DNA of 36,239 bases from an uncultured SAR86 cluster bacterium (GTDB lineage Bacteria > Pseudomonadota > Gammaproteobacteria > Magnimaribacterales > D2472). The translations under genes were made by a program, and so were the position numbers. The DNA lies in NCBI GenBank assembly GCA_902631785.1, contig CACOZT010000005.1, positions 1-36,239 of the forward strand, read 5' to 3'. The notes below the pieces were generated by a model. The model was not told where the DNA came from, did not search any database, and saw only the letters and a list, made by a program, of their open reading frames with translations. The stretch's first letter is position 1; each line of letters opens with the position of its first letter. Below are positions 6,553-26,240 of this stretch, piece after piece.

Positions 6553-7555
6553 TTTTTTTAAATATTTCTTTTAGATCGGTTTCAATTTTATAGGAGGATT
6601 CTAATTTAAAACCATAATTTTCAATAGCATTATTTTCCTTAAACCAACTTATTGCTTTATTACCAAGTTTTGCATTCGAAGTATATGCAATAATTTCATC
6701 AATGAGATCAAGATTTAAAAAAGAATTTGCTAGCTTAGGTCCTGCTTCGACTAAAATTGAACAAATCTCTTGATCTTTAAATGAATTTATTATCTTTGTT
6801 AGATCTTGATTTTTAAAAATTTGAACATTGTTTTCTTTAAAAAAATTTAGTTCCTTATCATACTCTTTACTTGTTAATAATATTTTTTTGGGTTGATTGG
6901 TTGGAAAACTTACTCTTGCGTTCATTCTAGGATTATCATTTATCAGCGTATTACCTCCAGTAAGAATCGCATCACATGAAGCTCTCAATATTTGAACATC
7001 CTCCCTTGAAGCTTTCGAAGTGATAATTGTTCTCTCATCACCTTGCATGTGAGATTTTCCATCCAACGAAGAGGCAATTTTTAGAATTATATAAGGTCTA
7101 TTATTGGTATGTTTGAAGAAAAAATATTTATTCTGATTTTTGACAATATCTTCATGTATACCAACAACAACATCAACACCATTCTTTTTTAAAATTTCGA
7201 TACCTTTACCAGCAACTTTTGGATTAGGATCGATTGAACCAATTACGACTTTTTTAATTCCAGTGCTTACAATTTTTTTTGCACATGATCCAGTTTTACC
7301 AACATGACTACATGGCTCAAGAGTGCATATTAATGTTAACTCAGAAAAGTTATCAAATTTCTTTCCCAGAAATTTCTTAGCATCAGAAATCGCATTTATT
7401 TCGGCATGATGACTACCATAAACCTCATGATAACCCTCTGAGATAATTTCATTACCATTCCATAAAATTGCACCTACAACAGGATTTGGCTTGGCAGTAT
7501 ATTTAAAAGACTCCGCATTAGTTAAAGCACGAAGCATAAGTTCTTCGAAATTCAT
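6545..7555 (-). CDS. ribD: Bifunctional riboflavin biosynthesis deaminase/reductase
   Basis: 336 residues. The N-terminal cytidine-deaminase-like domain has zinc ligands in HAE (His50-Ala-Glu52) and PCSHVGKTGSC (Cys82, Cys91). The C-terminal dihydrofolate-reductase-like domain starts near RPYIILKIASSLDGK. It carries out the pyrimidine deamination and the NADPH-dependent side-chain reduction that follow the GTP cyclohydrolase II step. It overlaps nrdR by 4 bases upstream and ribBA by 8 downstream. The gene usually placed next, riboflavin synthase (ribE), is missing from this position. Confidence 0.95.
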   Translation of the reverse strand: MNFEELMLRALTNAESFKYTAKPNPVVGAILWNGNEIISEGYHEVYGSHHAEINAISDAKKFLGKKFDNFSELTLICTLEPCSHVGKTGSCAKKIVSTGIKKVVIGSIDPNPKVAGKGIEILKKNGVDVVVGIHEDIVKNQNKYFFFKHTNNRPYIILKIASSLDGKSHMQGDERTIITSKASREDVQILRASCDAILTGGNTLINDNPRMNARVSFPTNQPKKILLTSKEYDKELNFFKENNVQIFKNQDLTKIINSFKDQEICSILVEAGPKLANSFLNLDLIDEIIAYTSNAKLGNKAISWFKENNAIENYGFKLESSYKIETDLKEIFKKNG

Positions 7556-8031
7556 TTTTTAGATTTTTTTCTCTTTGGTTTTTCTTTTGCTAAAGAGCTA
7601 ATTTCTTCTGAGAAATCTTTAATGTCCTGAAAGTCTCTGTAAACAGATGCGAATCTCACGTAAGCTACTGTATCAACTTCTTTAAGGGCATTCATCATTA
7701 TTTCACCAATCTCAATTGACTTAATTTCACGTACACCCCTAACTCTTATTTCTTTTAATATTTTTCCAAATACTATGTCAATTTCTTCAATAGAGAGTGG
7801 TCTCTTTTCTAAAGCCCTAAGCATGCCTTTTTTTAATTTAGACCCATTAAAAGGCTGTCTTTCACCATTACTTTTTATAACTCTTGGAAGAGCTAAGTCA
7901 GGTGTTTCAAATGTTGTAAATCTTGAATGACATACTTCGCATTCTCTTCTTCTTCTTATTTGAGAACCATCTGCGACCAACCTTGAATCAATTACCTTCG
8001 TATCTTCTGCTTGGCAAAAAGGACAGTACAT
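7552..8031 (-). CDS. nrdR: Transcriptional repressor NrdR (ribonucleotide reductase regulator)
   Basis: 159 residues. The N-terminal zinc ribbon has Cys3, Cys6, Cys31 and Cys34 (CPFC ... CEVC) with the RRRREC basic stretch; an ATP-cone domain covers about residues 49-139. NrdR senses dATP/ATP through the cone and represses nrd genes at tandem palindromic boxes. It starts directly after the glyA stop (TAGATG) and overlaps ribD by 4 bases, the conserved glyA-nrdR-ribD arrangement. Two NrdR-box-like palindromes are present in this window at 23499-23545, upstream of scpA. The 16-residue tail is Lys-rich. Confidence 0.96.
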   Translation of the reverse strand: MYCPFCQAEDTKVIDSRLVADGSQIRRRRECEVCHSRFTTFETPDLALPRVIKSNGERQPFNGSKLKKGMLRALEKRPLSIEEIDIVFGKILKEIRVRGVREIKSIEIGEIMMNALKEVDTVAYVRFASVYRDFQDIKDFSEEISSLAKEKPKRKKSKK

Positions 8032-22316: not shown

Positions 22317-23366
22317 TTATTTACCTCTTTTTGAATTTATAGCATCATTCAGCTTATTTAAACATATCAAAGTATCTTCCCAGCCCATACATGCATCAGT
22401 AATGCTTTGCCCATAATTTAGTTTTTCAGTAATTTTCTGATTACCTTCATTTAAATGACTCTCAATCATTACACCTTTTATATTTTTATTGCCCACAGCA
22501 ATTTGTTCTGATATCGAATCAATCACTGGAATTTGTTGTTTATATTTCTTTTGACTATTTCCATGACTCGCATCAATCATTATTGACTCATTAACCTCAG
22601 CTTCTTTTAAAGCAGTTAAAGTACTCTCCACTGATTCTTTATCAAAATTTGGCACTTTTCCACCTCTTAAAATTATATGAGCATCATTATTACCAGCTGT
22701 TTTGAGCATGGCTATGTCAGCTTCCTTTGTTGCACCTAGAAAGACATGAGAGTGATTTGCCGCCTGTATGCCATCAATTGCAGCTTTTAGACCACCGTCT
22801 GTGCCGTTTTTTATACCAATTGGACAAGAAAGACCAGAGGCGAGTTCTCTATGAATTTGGCTTTCCGCAGTTCTCGCTCCGATTGCACCCCAAGAAATAA
22901 CATCAGTCACATATTGTGGAGAAATTGGATCTAAGAATTCTGTTCCTGCAGGCAATCCTAGCTCTGCAATTTCGATGAGCAATTTTCTAGCCATTTCAAC
23001 TCCTTTAGCAATATTGTATGTTTCATTGATATCGGGATCATTTATTAGCCCTTTCCATCCAACAGTTGTTCTTGGCTTTTCAAAATAAACTCTCATTATT
23101 AATAAAAGATTTTCACTAAAATTTTTGTGTTCAATTGATAGTCTCTCTGCATATTCAAGTGCGCTTTTTGGATCATGAATTGAACAAGGTCCAACTACAA
23201 CAAATATTCGATCATCTTTATCATGAAGAATTTGACTAATTTCATTTCTTGTACCATACACAAGCTTCGATATTTCATCATTTATAGGATATTTGTTGAC
23301 CAGCTCGTAAGGTGCTGGGACCTTTTTCCTATCAATAATTCTTGTGTTATCAGTTGAATAATTCAT
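22317..23366 (-). CDS. aroG: 3-deoxy-7-phosphoheptulonate (DAHP) synthase, class I AroG/F/H type
   Basis: 349 residues. Condenses PEP and erythrose 4-phosphate, the first shikimate step. Motifs: VVVGPCSIHDPKSALEYAERL, MRVYFEKPRTTVGWKGLINDP, AGTEFLDPISPQY, GARTAESQIHRELASGLS, GIKNGTDG, ILRGG, DASHGNS and MIESHLNEG with the metal-binding His/Glu. E. coli has three isozymes (F, G, H); sequence by eye does not assign feedback type, so the symbol is generic. First gene of the long minus-strand run; a promoter probably lies at 23408-23436. serC, pheA and tyrA at the right end of the window use its pathway product or related steps. Confidence 0.95.
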   Translation of the reverse strand: MNYSTDNTRIIDRKKVPAPYELVNKYPINDEISKLVYGTRNEISQILHDKDDRIFVVVGPCSIHDPKSALEYAERLSIEHKNFSENLLLIMRVYFEKPRTTVGWKGLINDPDINETYNIAKGVEMARKLLIEIAELGLPAGTEFLDPISPQYVTDVISWGAIGARTAESQIHRELASGLSCPIGIKNGTDGGLKAAIDGIQAANHSHVFLGATKEADIAMLKTAGNNDAHIILRGGKVPNFDKESVESTLTALKEAEVNESIMIDASHGNSQKKYKQQIPVIDSISEQIAVGNKNIKGVMIESHLNEGNQKITEKLNYGQSITDACMGWEDTLICLNKLNDAINSKRGK

Positions 23367-23436: not shown

Positions 23437-23498
23437 CCATTTTTGTTAAGTAATTGAATTTAAAAAAATTGCTACAAATATGCATTTTTTAAGGAAAA

Positions 23499-23514
23499 AC
23501 ACTACATATTGTAT
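23499..23514. promoter_or_regulatory. NrdR-box-like palindrome, distal copy
   Basis: The 16-mer ACACTACATATTGTAT matches the published NrdR box consensus acaCwAtATaTwGtgt at 14 of 16 positions. It lies 38 bases upstream of the scpA start, and its centre is 32 bp from that of the second palindrome. Tandem boxes three helical turns apart are the usual NrdR arrangement. Inference from pattern only. Confidence 0.5.
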
Positions 23515-23542
23515 TAAAATAGCTAAAACTTACACTATATAG
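23514..23542 (+). promoter_or_regulatory. Possible scpA promoter covered by the palindromes
   Basis: TTAAAA (23514-23519) and TATATA (23537-23542) are 17 bases apart, each a 4/6 match. Initiation would fall at about 23549, so the scpA mRNA (ATG 23552) would be almost leaderless. This agrees with the absence of a ribosome binding site there. The proximal palindrome sits on the -10. Confidence 0.35.
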
Positions 23543-23545
23543 TGT
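23532..23545. promoter_or_regulatory. Perfect 14-bp palindrome, NrdR-box-like, proximal copy
   Basis: ACACTATATAGTGT is its own reverse complement and lies 6 bases upstream of the scpA ATG. Read as a 16-mer from 23532 it matches the NrdR consensus at 14 of 16 positions, though the perfect palindrome is 2 bp shorter in the middle than a canonical box. It covers the likely scpA -10. Confidence 0.6.
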
Positions 23546-23551
23546 TTAAAT

Positions 23552-24346
23552 ATGCAAAATTATAATCTTGCGCAGCTTGAAATTCCTGTTGTGATGGGAA
23601 ATCACATGGAACAGCTGCCTGATGATCTTTTTATTCCTCCAAATGCCTTAGAGATTTTCCTTGAAACATTCTCTGGACCGTTAGACCTACTTTTATATTT
23701 AATAAGAAAGGATGATATTGATATTCTTGATCTAGATATATCAAAGATAACTGATCAATATTTAGAGTATATCGAGCTGATGGATTCTTTAAAATTTGAA
23801 TTAGCAGCTGATTATCTAGTTATGGCTGCAACTCTTGCTGAAATAAAATCAAGATTAATGTTACCAAAAGAATCATTTGAAGATGAGGAAGAAGATCCTA
23901 GAGCGGCGCTTATCAAAAGGCTGCAAGAGTACAAAAGATTTAAGACGGTATCTGAAAAAATTGCTGTTTTGCCAAGAGTTGATAGAGATTTTTTTATAGC
24001 AAGTGCAAAAATTCCTAGACTACAAGAATCTATAAAAGAAGAATCTGAGATAAATATTGAGGACCTATATAGCTCCTTAGTAGCTGTATTAAATAGACCA
24101 AATTACAAAAACAGCCATTTAATCGATTTTGAGGAGTTATCAACTAAAGAGAGAATTCAAATACTTTTAGATATATTAAATAAAACAAACATTATAAGTT
24201 TCTCAAAAACACTTAAAAGGCTCGAAGGTAAAAAGGGAGTAGTAGTAACTCTTCTAGCATCACTGGAACTTGCAAAAGATGGCTATATTGAATTAATTCA
24301 AAATAAAAGCGAAGAATTATTCATAAAATCTGTGAGGAGCATCTAA
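23552..24346 (+). CDS. scpA: Segregation and condensation protein A (ScpA kleisin)
   Basis: 264 residues. Kleisin that bridges SMC heads with ScpB. The N-terminus (DDLFIPPNALEIFLETFSGPLDLLLYLIRKDDIDILDLDI) is the diagnostic ScpA signature, followed by LAADYLVMAATLAEIKSRLMLP and a C-terminal winged-helix part (VVVTLLASLELAKDGYIELIQ). The short leader before DLFIPP is typical of gammaproteobacterial ScpA and supports the ATG at 23552. Followed by scpB and rluB in the conserved order. The promoter carries two palindromes. Confidence 0.95.
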   Translation: MQNYNLAQLEIPVVMGNHMEQLPDDLFIPPNALEIFLETFSGPLDLLLYLIRKDDIDILDLDISKITDQYLEYIELMDSLKFELAADYLVMAATLAEIKSRLMLPKESFEDEEEDPRAALIKRLQEYKRFKTVSEKIAVLPRVDRDFFIASAKIPRLQESIKEESEINIEDLYSSLVAVLNRPNYKNSHLIDFEELSTKERIQILLDILNKTNIISFSKTLKRLEGKKGVVVTLLASLELAKDGYIELIQNKSEELFIKSVRSI

Positions 24347-24347
24347 A

Positions 24348-24905
24348 TTGGAACAAAAGGTCATTAATCATGTTGAAGCTCTTCTCTTTGGTTCTGGAAG
24401 ACCTATGAGACTTTCTGAAATAAAAAGCATACTTGAAAATACCGGATTAATTGTTGAGCTTAGTGAAGTTAAACGATCAATTAATGATCTAGAATTGAGA
24501 TACGAGGGCACATCCCTTGAAGTTAACGAGGTTGCATCAGGCTATAGACTTCAAATAAAAGAGGATCATAGTCAGAGCTTAAGCTCACTTTGGAATGAGA
24601 AAGCTCCTAGAGTTTCAAAAGCATTAATGGAAACAATTTCAATAATTGCATACAAACAACCAGTAACAAGAGGAGATATTGAAGACATAAGAGGGATTAC
24701 AGTTAGCACAAGAATTATTAGGTCTTTGTTGGAAAGAAATTGGATAAAAGTATCTGGCTATAGAGATGTTCCTGGAAGACCAGCTTTATATGTGACAACA
24801 AAAGATTTCCTAAATGATTTAAATCTGAAAAGTATTTCTGAATTACCTGAATTACCTGAAATCGAAGAAAACCAAGAGAAAGATCTACTGCCTCAAGCCA
24901 TATAA
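24348..24905 (+). CDS. scpB: Segregation and condensation protein B (ScpB)
   Basis: 185 residues, tandem winged helices that bind ScpA in the SMC complex. Visible: VEALLFGSGRPMRLSEI at the N-terminus, and SKALMETISIIAYKQPVTRGDIEDIRG with RSLLERNWIKVSGYRDVPGRPALYVTT, the family core. Start TTG, one base after the scpA stop, with GAGGAG at 24334-24339 as ribosome binding site. A 9-base tandem repeat (GAATTACCT twice, 24840-24857) encodes ELPELPE in the acidic tail. Confidence 0.95.
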   Translation: MEQKVINHVEALLFGSGRPMRLSEIKSILENTGLIVELSEVKRSINDLELRYEGTSLEVNEVASGYRLQIKEDHSQSLSSLWNEKAPRVSKALMETISIIAYKQPVTRGDIEDIRGITVSTRIIRSLLERNWIKVSGYRDVPGRPALYVTTKDFLNDLNLKSISELPELPEIEENQEKDLLPQAI

Positions 24906-24912
24906 TTAATTA

Positions 24913-25614
24913 ATGGCAGAGAGACTTCAAAAATTTCTTGCAAAATCTGGAATTGGATCAAGAAGGTACTGCGAGGAATTAATACAATCAAAAAAAATTA
25001 AAGTAAATGGTCACATTGCGCTCATAGGTGCCACAGTAGATCAAAATGATGTGGTTGAATATGATGGCAATGTTGTTTCTTTTATAGAGTCAGAGACCAA
25101 ATTACTAATGTTAAATAAACCTGAGGGTGTCCTATCTTCAAATAAAAAAGAAAAAAATTTACCAATAGTTTTTGACTTTCTACCTGAAGATAAATCAAAA
25201 ACAAGATGGATTTCAATTGGAAGATTGGATATTAATTCGTCGGGTTTAATGCTTTTTACAAATGATGGTACATTTGCTAATTACTGTATGCATCCCTCAT
25301 CGATGATTGATAGAGAATATTTGGTTAGGGCAAGAGGGGATTTCACAAAAGAAAAGAAAGAAAAAATGTTATCAGGAATAAAAATTGATGGCGATATTTA
25401 TAGATTTACAGATATTGTCGAAGGAGAAAAACAATCTTCAAATCAATGGTTTTCTGTTTGTCTTATGTCGGGAAAAAACAGAGAAGTAAGAAAAATATTT
25501 GATGCCGTTGGACTTGAAATTAGTAGGCTGAAAAGAACAAGATTTGGACCTATTTTTTTACCTTCATCACTAAAAAAAGGGGGGGCACATAGAATTATCC
25601 ACAAAAGAAATTGA
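24913..25614 (+). CDS. rluB: 23S rRNA pseudouridine synthase RluB-like
   Basis: 233 residues. N-terminal S4 RNA-binding domain (ERLQKFLAKSGIGSRRYCEELI ... KVNGHIA) then the RsuA/RluB catalytic domain with the active-site Asp in SIGRLDINSSGLMLFTNDG, REYLVRARG, SGKNREVRKIFDAVGLEISRLKR and RFGPI. Position after scpAB is the standard rluB location; the protein is shorter than E. coli RluB (291) because it lacks the long basic tail. RluE/RsuA specificity cannot be fully excluded. No ribosome binding site is visible before the ATG. Confidence 0.9.
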   Translation: MAERLQKFLAKSGIGSRRYCEELIQSKKIKVNGHIALIGATVDQNDVVEYDGNVVSFIESETKLLMLNKPEGVLSSNKKEKNLPIVFDFLPEDKSKTRWISIGRLDINSSGLMLFTNDGTFANYCMHPSSMIDREYLVRARGDFTKEKKEKMLSGIKIDGDIYRFTDIVEGEKQSSNQWFSVCLMSGKNREVRKIFDAVGLEISRLKRTRFGPIFLPSSLKKGGAHRIIHKRN

Positions 25615-26240
25615 TTCAATCAAAAACTATGGAATATAAACTCGCACACAAATTTTTATATGATAAAGCTGTTGAAAAAGGCTTTACAGAACTTGCAAAA
25701 CATATCGAGAAGGTTGGTCCTTTAAAAATCACAGTATCTAAAATGGATTTTGTAAGTCATCTTTCAAAAATAATTATTGGTCAACAACTTTCTGTTCAAT
25801 CAGCTGCCGCAATATGGAAAAGGACAGAAAAGATACTTAAAGAAAATAAATATAAAATGGAGAATATTAAACTTAATAAAAAGTTTAAAGATGCAGGTCT
25901 TTCAAGACAAAAGATTGAATATCTTAATGGAATTATTTTTAATAAAGACCTCTTAAATATCTCCAAAAATGAACTCAAAAGAATGAATCCTTCTGAGTAT
26001 TTTGATTTTTTGATCCAAATCAAAGGCATTGGACCATGGTCAATCGAAATGTCTAGAATATTTTATATTGGTGATCCGGATGTTTTTTCTATTTTAGATT
26101 TAGGTTTAAAAAATGCTCATTTAAAGATGTTTAAAATTGATAGTTACAATGAGTCCTTTTATGAGAATTTTAGACCTTTTAGGAGTTATATGTGTCTTTT
26201 TTTATGGAGAATACTGGAAGATGATAATGTTACTATTTGA
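25611..26240 (+). CDS. AlkA-like 3-methyladenine DNA glycosylase
   Basis: 209 residues of the HhH-GPD superfamily. IIGQQLSVQSAAAIWKR, then the helix-hairpin-helix IKGIGPWSIEMSRIF, then DPDVFSILDLGLKNA with the catalytic Asp, are the AlkA-type landmarks. It would remove alkylated purines in base excision repair. The N-terminal AlkA domain of E. coli is absent, as in many short bacterial versions. Start is TTG 25611 (TTGA overlap with the rluB stop) or ATG 25629; neither has a good ribosome binding site. It ends 8 bases inside the convergent dehydrogenase gene. Confidence 0.87.
   Translation: MIQSKTMEYKLAHKFLYDKAVEKGFTELAKHIEKVGPLKITVSKMDFVSHLSKIIIGQQLSVQSAAAIWKRTEKILKENKYKMENIKLNKKFKDAGLSRQKIEYLNGIIFNKDLLNISKNELKRMNPSEYFDFLIQIKGIGPWSIEMSRIFYIGDPDVFSILDLGLKNAHLKMFKIDSYNESFYENFRPFRSYMCLFLWRILEDDNVTI

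Follow-up and report, generated by a model that had tools for sequence, protein, structure and literature searches.

Does NrdR, the repressor of ribonucleotide reductase genes, also control chromosome-organising genes in the marine SAR86 bacteria? The question is raised by two palindromes at 23499–23545 of a 36,239-nucleotide stretch of DNA from an uncultured SAR86 bacterium (the window), which the original prediction took for tandem NrdR boxes on the promoter of scpA, scpB and rluB. The window is contig 5 of an assembly of 1.03 Mb in 18 contigs that is 75.5% complete. Assemblies of the SAR86 order range from 0.8 to 1.8 Mb, and bacteria of this kind would presumably have retained few regulators. 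We compared 60 genomes of the order, including the own one. They belong to the window's own family (f1), two further families (f3 and f4) and a basal family (f2).

The box pair upstream of scpA

The proposed target scpA (23552–24346, + strand; PF02616, 94 bits) encodes the kleisin subunit. It is followed on the same strand by scpB (24348–24905; PF04079, 164.5 bits) and by a gene for an rluB-like pseudouridine synthase (24913–25614; PF00849 and an S4 domain), which shares the scpAB operon as judged by spacing. The end of rluB is overlapped by a possible further member of the operon, a gene with weak similarity to HhH-GPD DNA glycosylases (25611–26240, + strand; PF00730 with 22.9 bits, below the curated cut-off, which is 26.2). 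On the other side lies a divergent gene for an aroF/aroG-like DAHP synthase (22317–23366, − strand; PF00793, 304 bits), which is not a likely target.

Boxes were compared with the 16-bp NrdR consensus, which we take to be ACACWATATATWGTGT (source: Rodionov and Gelfand 2005). Box 1, ACACTACATATTGTAT (23499–23514, + strand), has 14 of 16 matches and terminates in GTAT instead of GTGT. The second site contains the perfect 14-bp palindrome that had been predicted, ACACTATATAGTGT at 23532–23545, and two 16-mer registers, offset by 2 bp, are possible for this palindrome. Read as 23532–23547, it also reaches 14/16. In the register 23530–23545 (+ strand), with the sequence TTACACTATATAGTGT, it reaches 13/16, with C in place of A at position 6. 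The latter register keeps C4 and G13 in 29/29 f1 genomes with a spacer of 15 bp (21 genomes) or 16 bp (8 genomes), whereas the alternative keeps them in 26/29 with a spacer of 17 or 18 bp. We therefore prefer 23530–23545 for box 2, which would leave a spacer of 15 bp (23515–23529, + strand) and place the box centres 31 bp apart. With this placement, the original description of two sites of 14/16 each stands for box 1 and has to be lowered to 13/16 for box 2, and the centre distance of 32 bp has to be corrected by 1 bp.

As the spacer of an NrdR operator we accepted 14–17 bp, usually 15–16 bp, with three helix turns between the centres; 15–16 bp is also the usual spacing in PMC12051234. C4 and G13 are retained in both boxes of all 42 scpA regions examined in f1, f3 and f4. 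PMC9110341 describes conserved G-C pairs at probe positions 9/18 and 40/49, which in our reading correspond to box positions 4/13. Every f1 pair, at scpA and at nrdA alike, has one box that deviates from the canonical 16-mer. We also observed that one box per f1 pair forms a 14-bp palindrome, perfect or nearly so (23532–23545 in the window; G000:C3:14918-14931).

The pair lies close to the start of scpA. Box 2 ends 6 bp before the ATG in the window, and both boxes fall within 53 bp of it. Between box 2 and the following ATG there are 2–6 bp in 29 f1 regions and 0 bp in 5 f4 regions; if translation begins at that ATG, the start would be leaderless or nearly so. For f3, our script found an ATG in 5 of 8 regions, 32–37 bp after box 2, and inspection by eye showed a TATAAT after box 2. 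By eye, box 1 of f1 and f4 overlaps a −35-like TTGTAT or TAGTAT, as the right half of box 1 in the window may do, and box 2 overlaps a −10-like TACACT or TACAAT, with 16–17 bp in between. A consensus promoter scan at scpA remained at chance level (3 found against a shuffle mean of 2.1); going by this layout, the boxes may cover the scpA promoter.

Conservation of the boxes

Palindromes that are not conserved upstream of scpA in relatives would have refuted the original prediction; this outcome was not obtained. ScpA was matched in 51 of the 60 genomes (29 f1, 8 f2, 8 f3 and 6 f4); 7/36 f1 and 2/8 f4 genomes were without a match, and one of the matched f4 genomes (G053), with a fragment only, was left out of the box counts. 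The pair is present upstream of scpA in 29/29 f1, 8/8 f3 and 5/5 f4 regions, and in each region 0/200 dinucleotide shuffles scored as high. Thus, all 42 examined regions of three families carry it. The best two-box sum is 26–29 of 32 in 29/29 f1 regions. In f4 the spacer is 16 bp in the C4/G13 register, and for f3 a C4/G13 pair with the spacing limited to 15–16 bp exists in 8/8 regions. The weak f3 pairs are those of G037, with a sum of 24, and of G058, where two pairings tie at 25.

Conservation within f1 (n = 29) is concentrated in the boxes. Columns conserved to at least 95% make up 13/16 of box 1 and 11/16 of box 2, against 4/15 of the spacer and 12/85 of the upstream intergenic sequence. 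No other part of the measured intergenic region is as conserved as the boxes. A TTTTTAAGGAAA-like stretch directly 5′ of box 1 (23485–23498, + strand), which most f1 genomes retain, has 5/14 columns at this level.

The basal family f2 differs, as a consensus pair was found upstream of scpA in 0/8 regions, despite the presence of NrdR in 7/8 genomes and of nrdA boxes in 6/6 examined. A tree of ScpA and ScpB, built from 21 rows within the order plus 8 from elsewhere, groups f3 with f1 and f4 to the exclusion of f2 (97/90) and joins f4 to f1 as its sister (98/96); the f4 branch is long (1.29), and one f4 row spans just 148/264 ScpA columns. As f2 branches outside f3, f1 and f4, a single gain of the boxes after the f2 split suffices.

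We also scored scpA regions from other members of the class. ScpA was found in 102/114 genomes of the class sample, two of them from the SAR86 order, and 60 of the other 100 were taken. One region was cut by a contig end, leaving 59. The scan covered 360 bp, counted from a start that was set by the ScpA match; boxes farther upstream would escape it. One of the 59 regions (L200) passed the loose threshold, with a score of 22 that was reached by 2/200 shuffles, and about one is expected by chance. With the strict criterion (C4/G13 and a sum of at least 24) the count was 0/59. The box pair was therefore rejected as a class-wide feature, and the proposed link between NrdR and scpAB does not reach beyond a part of the SAR86 order: f1, f3 and f4 have the pair and f2 does not.

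The box-pair regular expression published in PMC12051234 matched 4/29 f1, 7/8 f3 and 5/5 f4 scpA regions, 36/50 nrdA regions and 0/59 regions of other class members. Because it also matched 4/8 f2 regions without a consensus pair and missed 14/50 nrdA regions, this expression discriminates poorly here. Upstream of smc, the box pair was found in none of 10 genomes examined.

The nrdAB operator and the NrdR protein

A comparison is provided by the classic target. The original prediction expected the same tandem motif upstream of nrdAB and took a different motif there as the refuting outcome. The nrdA and nrdB genes lie on contig 3 of the own genome (PF02867, PF00268), and the same motif precedes them as ATACACTATATTGTGT, 15 bp and TCACAATATATTGTGT, about 150 bp upstream of nrdA. 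The operator at scpA therefore matches the genome's own nrdAB operator. The nrdA pair is present in 50/50 regions examined (33 f1, 6 f2, 4 f3 and 7 f4), with sums of 24–29 of 32 and 0/200 shuffles as high in each region; the first box is weak (10–11 of 16) in some f3 and f4 regions. These 50 come from 56 genomes with an nrdA match, the omitted ones being G017, G042, G043, G046, G052 and G059.

Two side observations concern the nrdA intergenic region. A divergent FGGY sugar kinase gene shares it (G000:C3, L003:6740-7002). In addition, an exact DnaA-box-like TTATCCACA lies beside the nrdA boxes in 33/33 f1, 4/6 f2, 1/4 f3 and 2/7 f4 regions, which would fit control of nrdAB by DnaA as well as by NrdR. 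Among 50 scpA regions of the order, the exact TTATCCACA occurred in none and a one-mismatch version in 7.

Throughout the own assembly, we found only four sites with at least 14/16 matches, and all of them are in the two pairs upstream of nrdAB and scpAB. Single 16-mer sites with up to 3 mismatches numbered 21, compared to 22 for a reversed-pattern control, and 14-mer sites with up to 2 mismatches numbered 4, compared to 6. Thus, single boxes are not commoner than chance, and the pairing is the unlikely part: two pairs were observed where chance would give about 0.0016 per genome, the estimate being a simple one for 21 random sites and a 14–17 bp spacer that ignores the overlap of registers. 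Among the matches listed, which cover the own genome in full, G037, G034 and part of G015, 2-mismatch single sites of G015 and G034 fall within long open frames, and none of four weaker single sites (G000, G034 and G037) has a partner. The G034 site has a 10/16 partner 15 bp away in the same frame, with a sum of 24 (L254), which is a chance pair in a coding frame and equals the sum of the weak G037 pair at scpA. As the own assembly is incomplete, further NrdR targets may exist.

The proposed repressor is encoded in the window as predicted, by nrdR at 7552–8031 (− strand; PF22811 and PF03477), with Zn-ribbon and ATP-cone domains. Solved NrdR chains, 9fvr among them, align with the protein along 147 residues (E ~2e-56). 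Reading of the protein sequence showed D15, R17, R26–R29 and R37, which are among the DNA contacts named in PMC9110341; the R12 contact of PMC9110341 is K12 in the window protein, as in the 9fvr chain. The NrdR Zn-ribbon model matched in 56/60 genomes of the order and in 23/23 of those with at least 90% completeness. The nrdR and scpA genes are linked, with about 15.5 kb between them in the window; one f2 genome (G039) has them about 31.5 kb apart.

Proposed regulation of scpAB

According to three studies (PMC9110341, PMC12176259, PMC12051234), NrdR binding is absent or much weaker with ATP alone, whereas with dATP and ATP a tetramer binds; high affinity needs two boxes, and their centres should be separated by whole helix turns. 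The two-box operators known from ribonucleotide reductase genes (E. coli nrdHIEF, nrdDG and nrdAB; S. coelicolor nrdRJ and nrdAB) are alike in having two 16-bp palindromes 15–16 bp apart, and the motif stands on the own nrdAB as well. In contrast to these operators, the downstream genes here are scpA-scpB-rluB and no ribonucleotide reductase.

Judging from the sequence, 23499–23545 is quite likely an NrdR operator by which NrdR, loaded with dATP and ATP, puts scpAB under the same repression as nrdAB. At high dATP, NrdR with ATP and dATP would form a tetramer that binds both boxes and kinks the DNA, and the bound tetramer would block RNA polymerase at the scpA promoter, as at nrdAB. Once DNA synthesis drains dATP, NrdR would release, and nrdAB and scpA-scpB-rluB would be expressed together. 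The supply of ScpA and ScpB would thereby be coupled to the demand for dNTPs, i.e. to chromosome replication. The suggestion that NrdR links nucleotide supply to SMC-complex genes thus appears to be borne out at the level of sequence, by the same motif on nrdAB and by conservation in 42/42 regions. A conserved two-box scpAB operator would extend NrdR to chromosome organisation and would offer a direct route from nucleotide supply to SMC loading.

NrdR might also bind the scpA boxes as an activator or fine-tuner rather than a repressor. Precedent comes from topA of P. aeruginosa, a DNA-topology gene and, like scpA, a non-reductase gene; in PMC4409342, it is added to the reductase genes as NrdR-regulated, with a single box and activation by NrdR. 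However, the topA mechanism is disputed and termed questionable in PMC12051234, and the scpA site has two boxes in 42/42 regions, like the repressed nrd promoters, and lies within 53 bp of the ATG in the window. We consider activation unlikely.

The region that holds the boxes is common to scpA and the DAHP synthase gene in the window and in three f4 rows inspected, and one could suppose that the boxes control the latter, with scpA as a bystander. In three f2 and three f3 rows inspected, however, a same-strand frame lies upstream of scpA instead. A Pfam search confirmed DAHP synthase in one f4 row and NAD synthase (nadE) in one f3 and one f2 row, the rest being assigned by eye. The three f3 rows have the boxes despite this different neighbour, and therefore the boxes go with scpA; with a single gain, they would then have outlasted a switch of the neighbour from NAD synthase to DAHP synthase. 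Distances agree: on the scpA side the ATG follows the boxes after 2–6 bp (29 f1) or 0 bp (5 f4), whereas in the window 132 bp separate them from the start of the DAHP synthase gene. We rejected DAHP synthase as the target of the boxes, since f3 keeps them beside the NAD synthase gene, and regard such a role as very improbable.

Just as improbable is a different regulator with a similar palindrome that binds both nrdAB and scpAB. The off-canonical box in each f1 pair, at scpA and nrdA, would fit such a protein, and binding by NrdR is something we infer. Yet this motif with 15–16 bp between the boxes is characteristic of NrdR, which has nrdAB as its classic target and occurs in 56/60 genomes, and the window copy has the known contact residues. 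Finally, chance palindromes in AT-rich intergenic DNA, an idea in line with single sites being no commoner than in the control (21 vs 22; 4 vs 6), are refuted by the retention of the pair in 42/42 regions of f1, f3 and f4, by box columns far more conserved than their surroundings and by the expectation of 0.0016 chance pairs, and their probability is practically nil.

We then placed the proposed repression of scpAB by NrdR beside the literature. NrdR is described as a repressor specific for ribonucleotide reductase in PMC9110341 and PMC12051234. PMC5343134 counts 186 proteobacterial NrdR regulons, and scpA is absent from its main text. Besides topA, the non-reductase target encountered was ribX: the nrdA or ribX promoter regions are mentioned as NrdR substrates in PMC4898720, the main text of which does not contain the words segregation and mukB, and ribX serves as a negative control in PMC12176259. 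Our literature search found no report of scpA as an NrdR target, and three papers carry a single mention each of NrdR and scpA; further targets may be listed by Rodionov and Gelfand (2005) or RegPrecise. It also found nothing joining NrdR with SAR86 or SAR86 with ScpA, and nothing on an scpAB link in literature on NrdR with replication genes. Among the matches listed, 'segregation and condensation protein' appeared in none of the NrdR literature, NrdR in none of the SMC-complex literature and ScpAB in none of the nrdAB literature.

A broader idea, which we offer as possible and somewhat doubtful, is that NrdR serves as a replication-phase switch in f1, f3 and f4. The dATP/ATP ratio would turn on the dNTP enzyme and the ScpAB of a short-Smc condensin as a tiny regulon, and loop-extruding complexes would be assembled mainly during DNA synthesis. 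In eukaryotes, the S-phase regulons of E2F and MBF place ribonucleotide reductase and chromosome-organising genes under one regulator. If true, the SAR86 switch would be a bacterial counterpart of these regulons, differing from them in that the signal would be the nucleotide pool, sensed by an ATP-cone repressor.

As a separate observation, the Smc proteins of SAR86 are unusually short. The own assembly contained no match resembling the Smc of relatives, perhaps due to its incompleteness, and no hinge domain was listed for the single SAR86 Smc scanned. Smc frames measure 732–745 aa in 7 f1/f4 genomes (for example, L249:1450-3648(-) and L251:172-2370(+)) and 815–843 aa in 3 f2/f3 genomes, compared to 1171–1242 aa in 8/8 other class members. 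Both ATPase ends are present in the SAR86 Smc proteins that were read.
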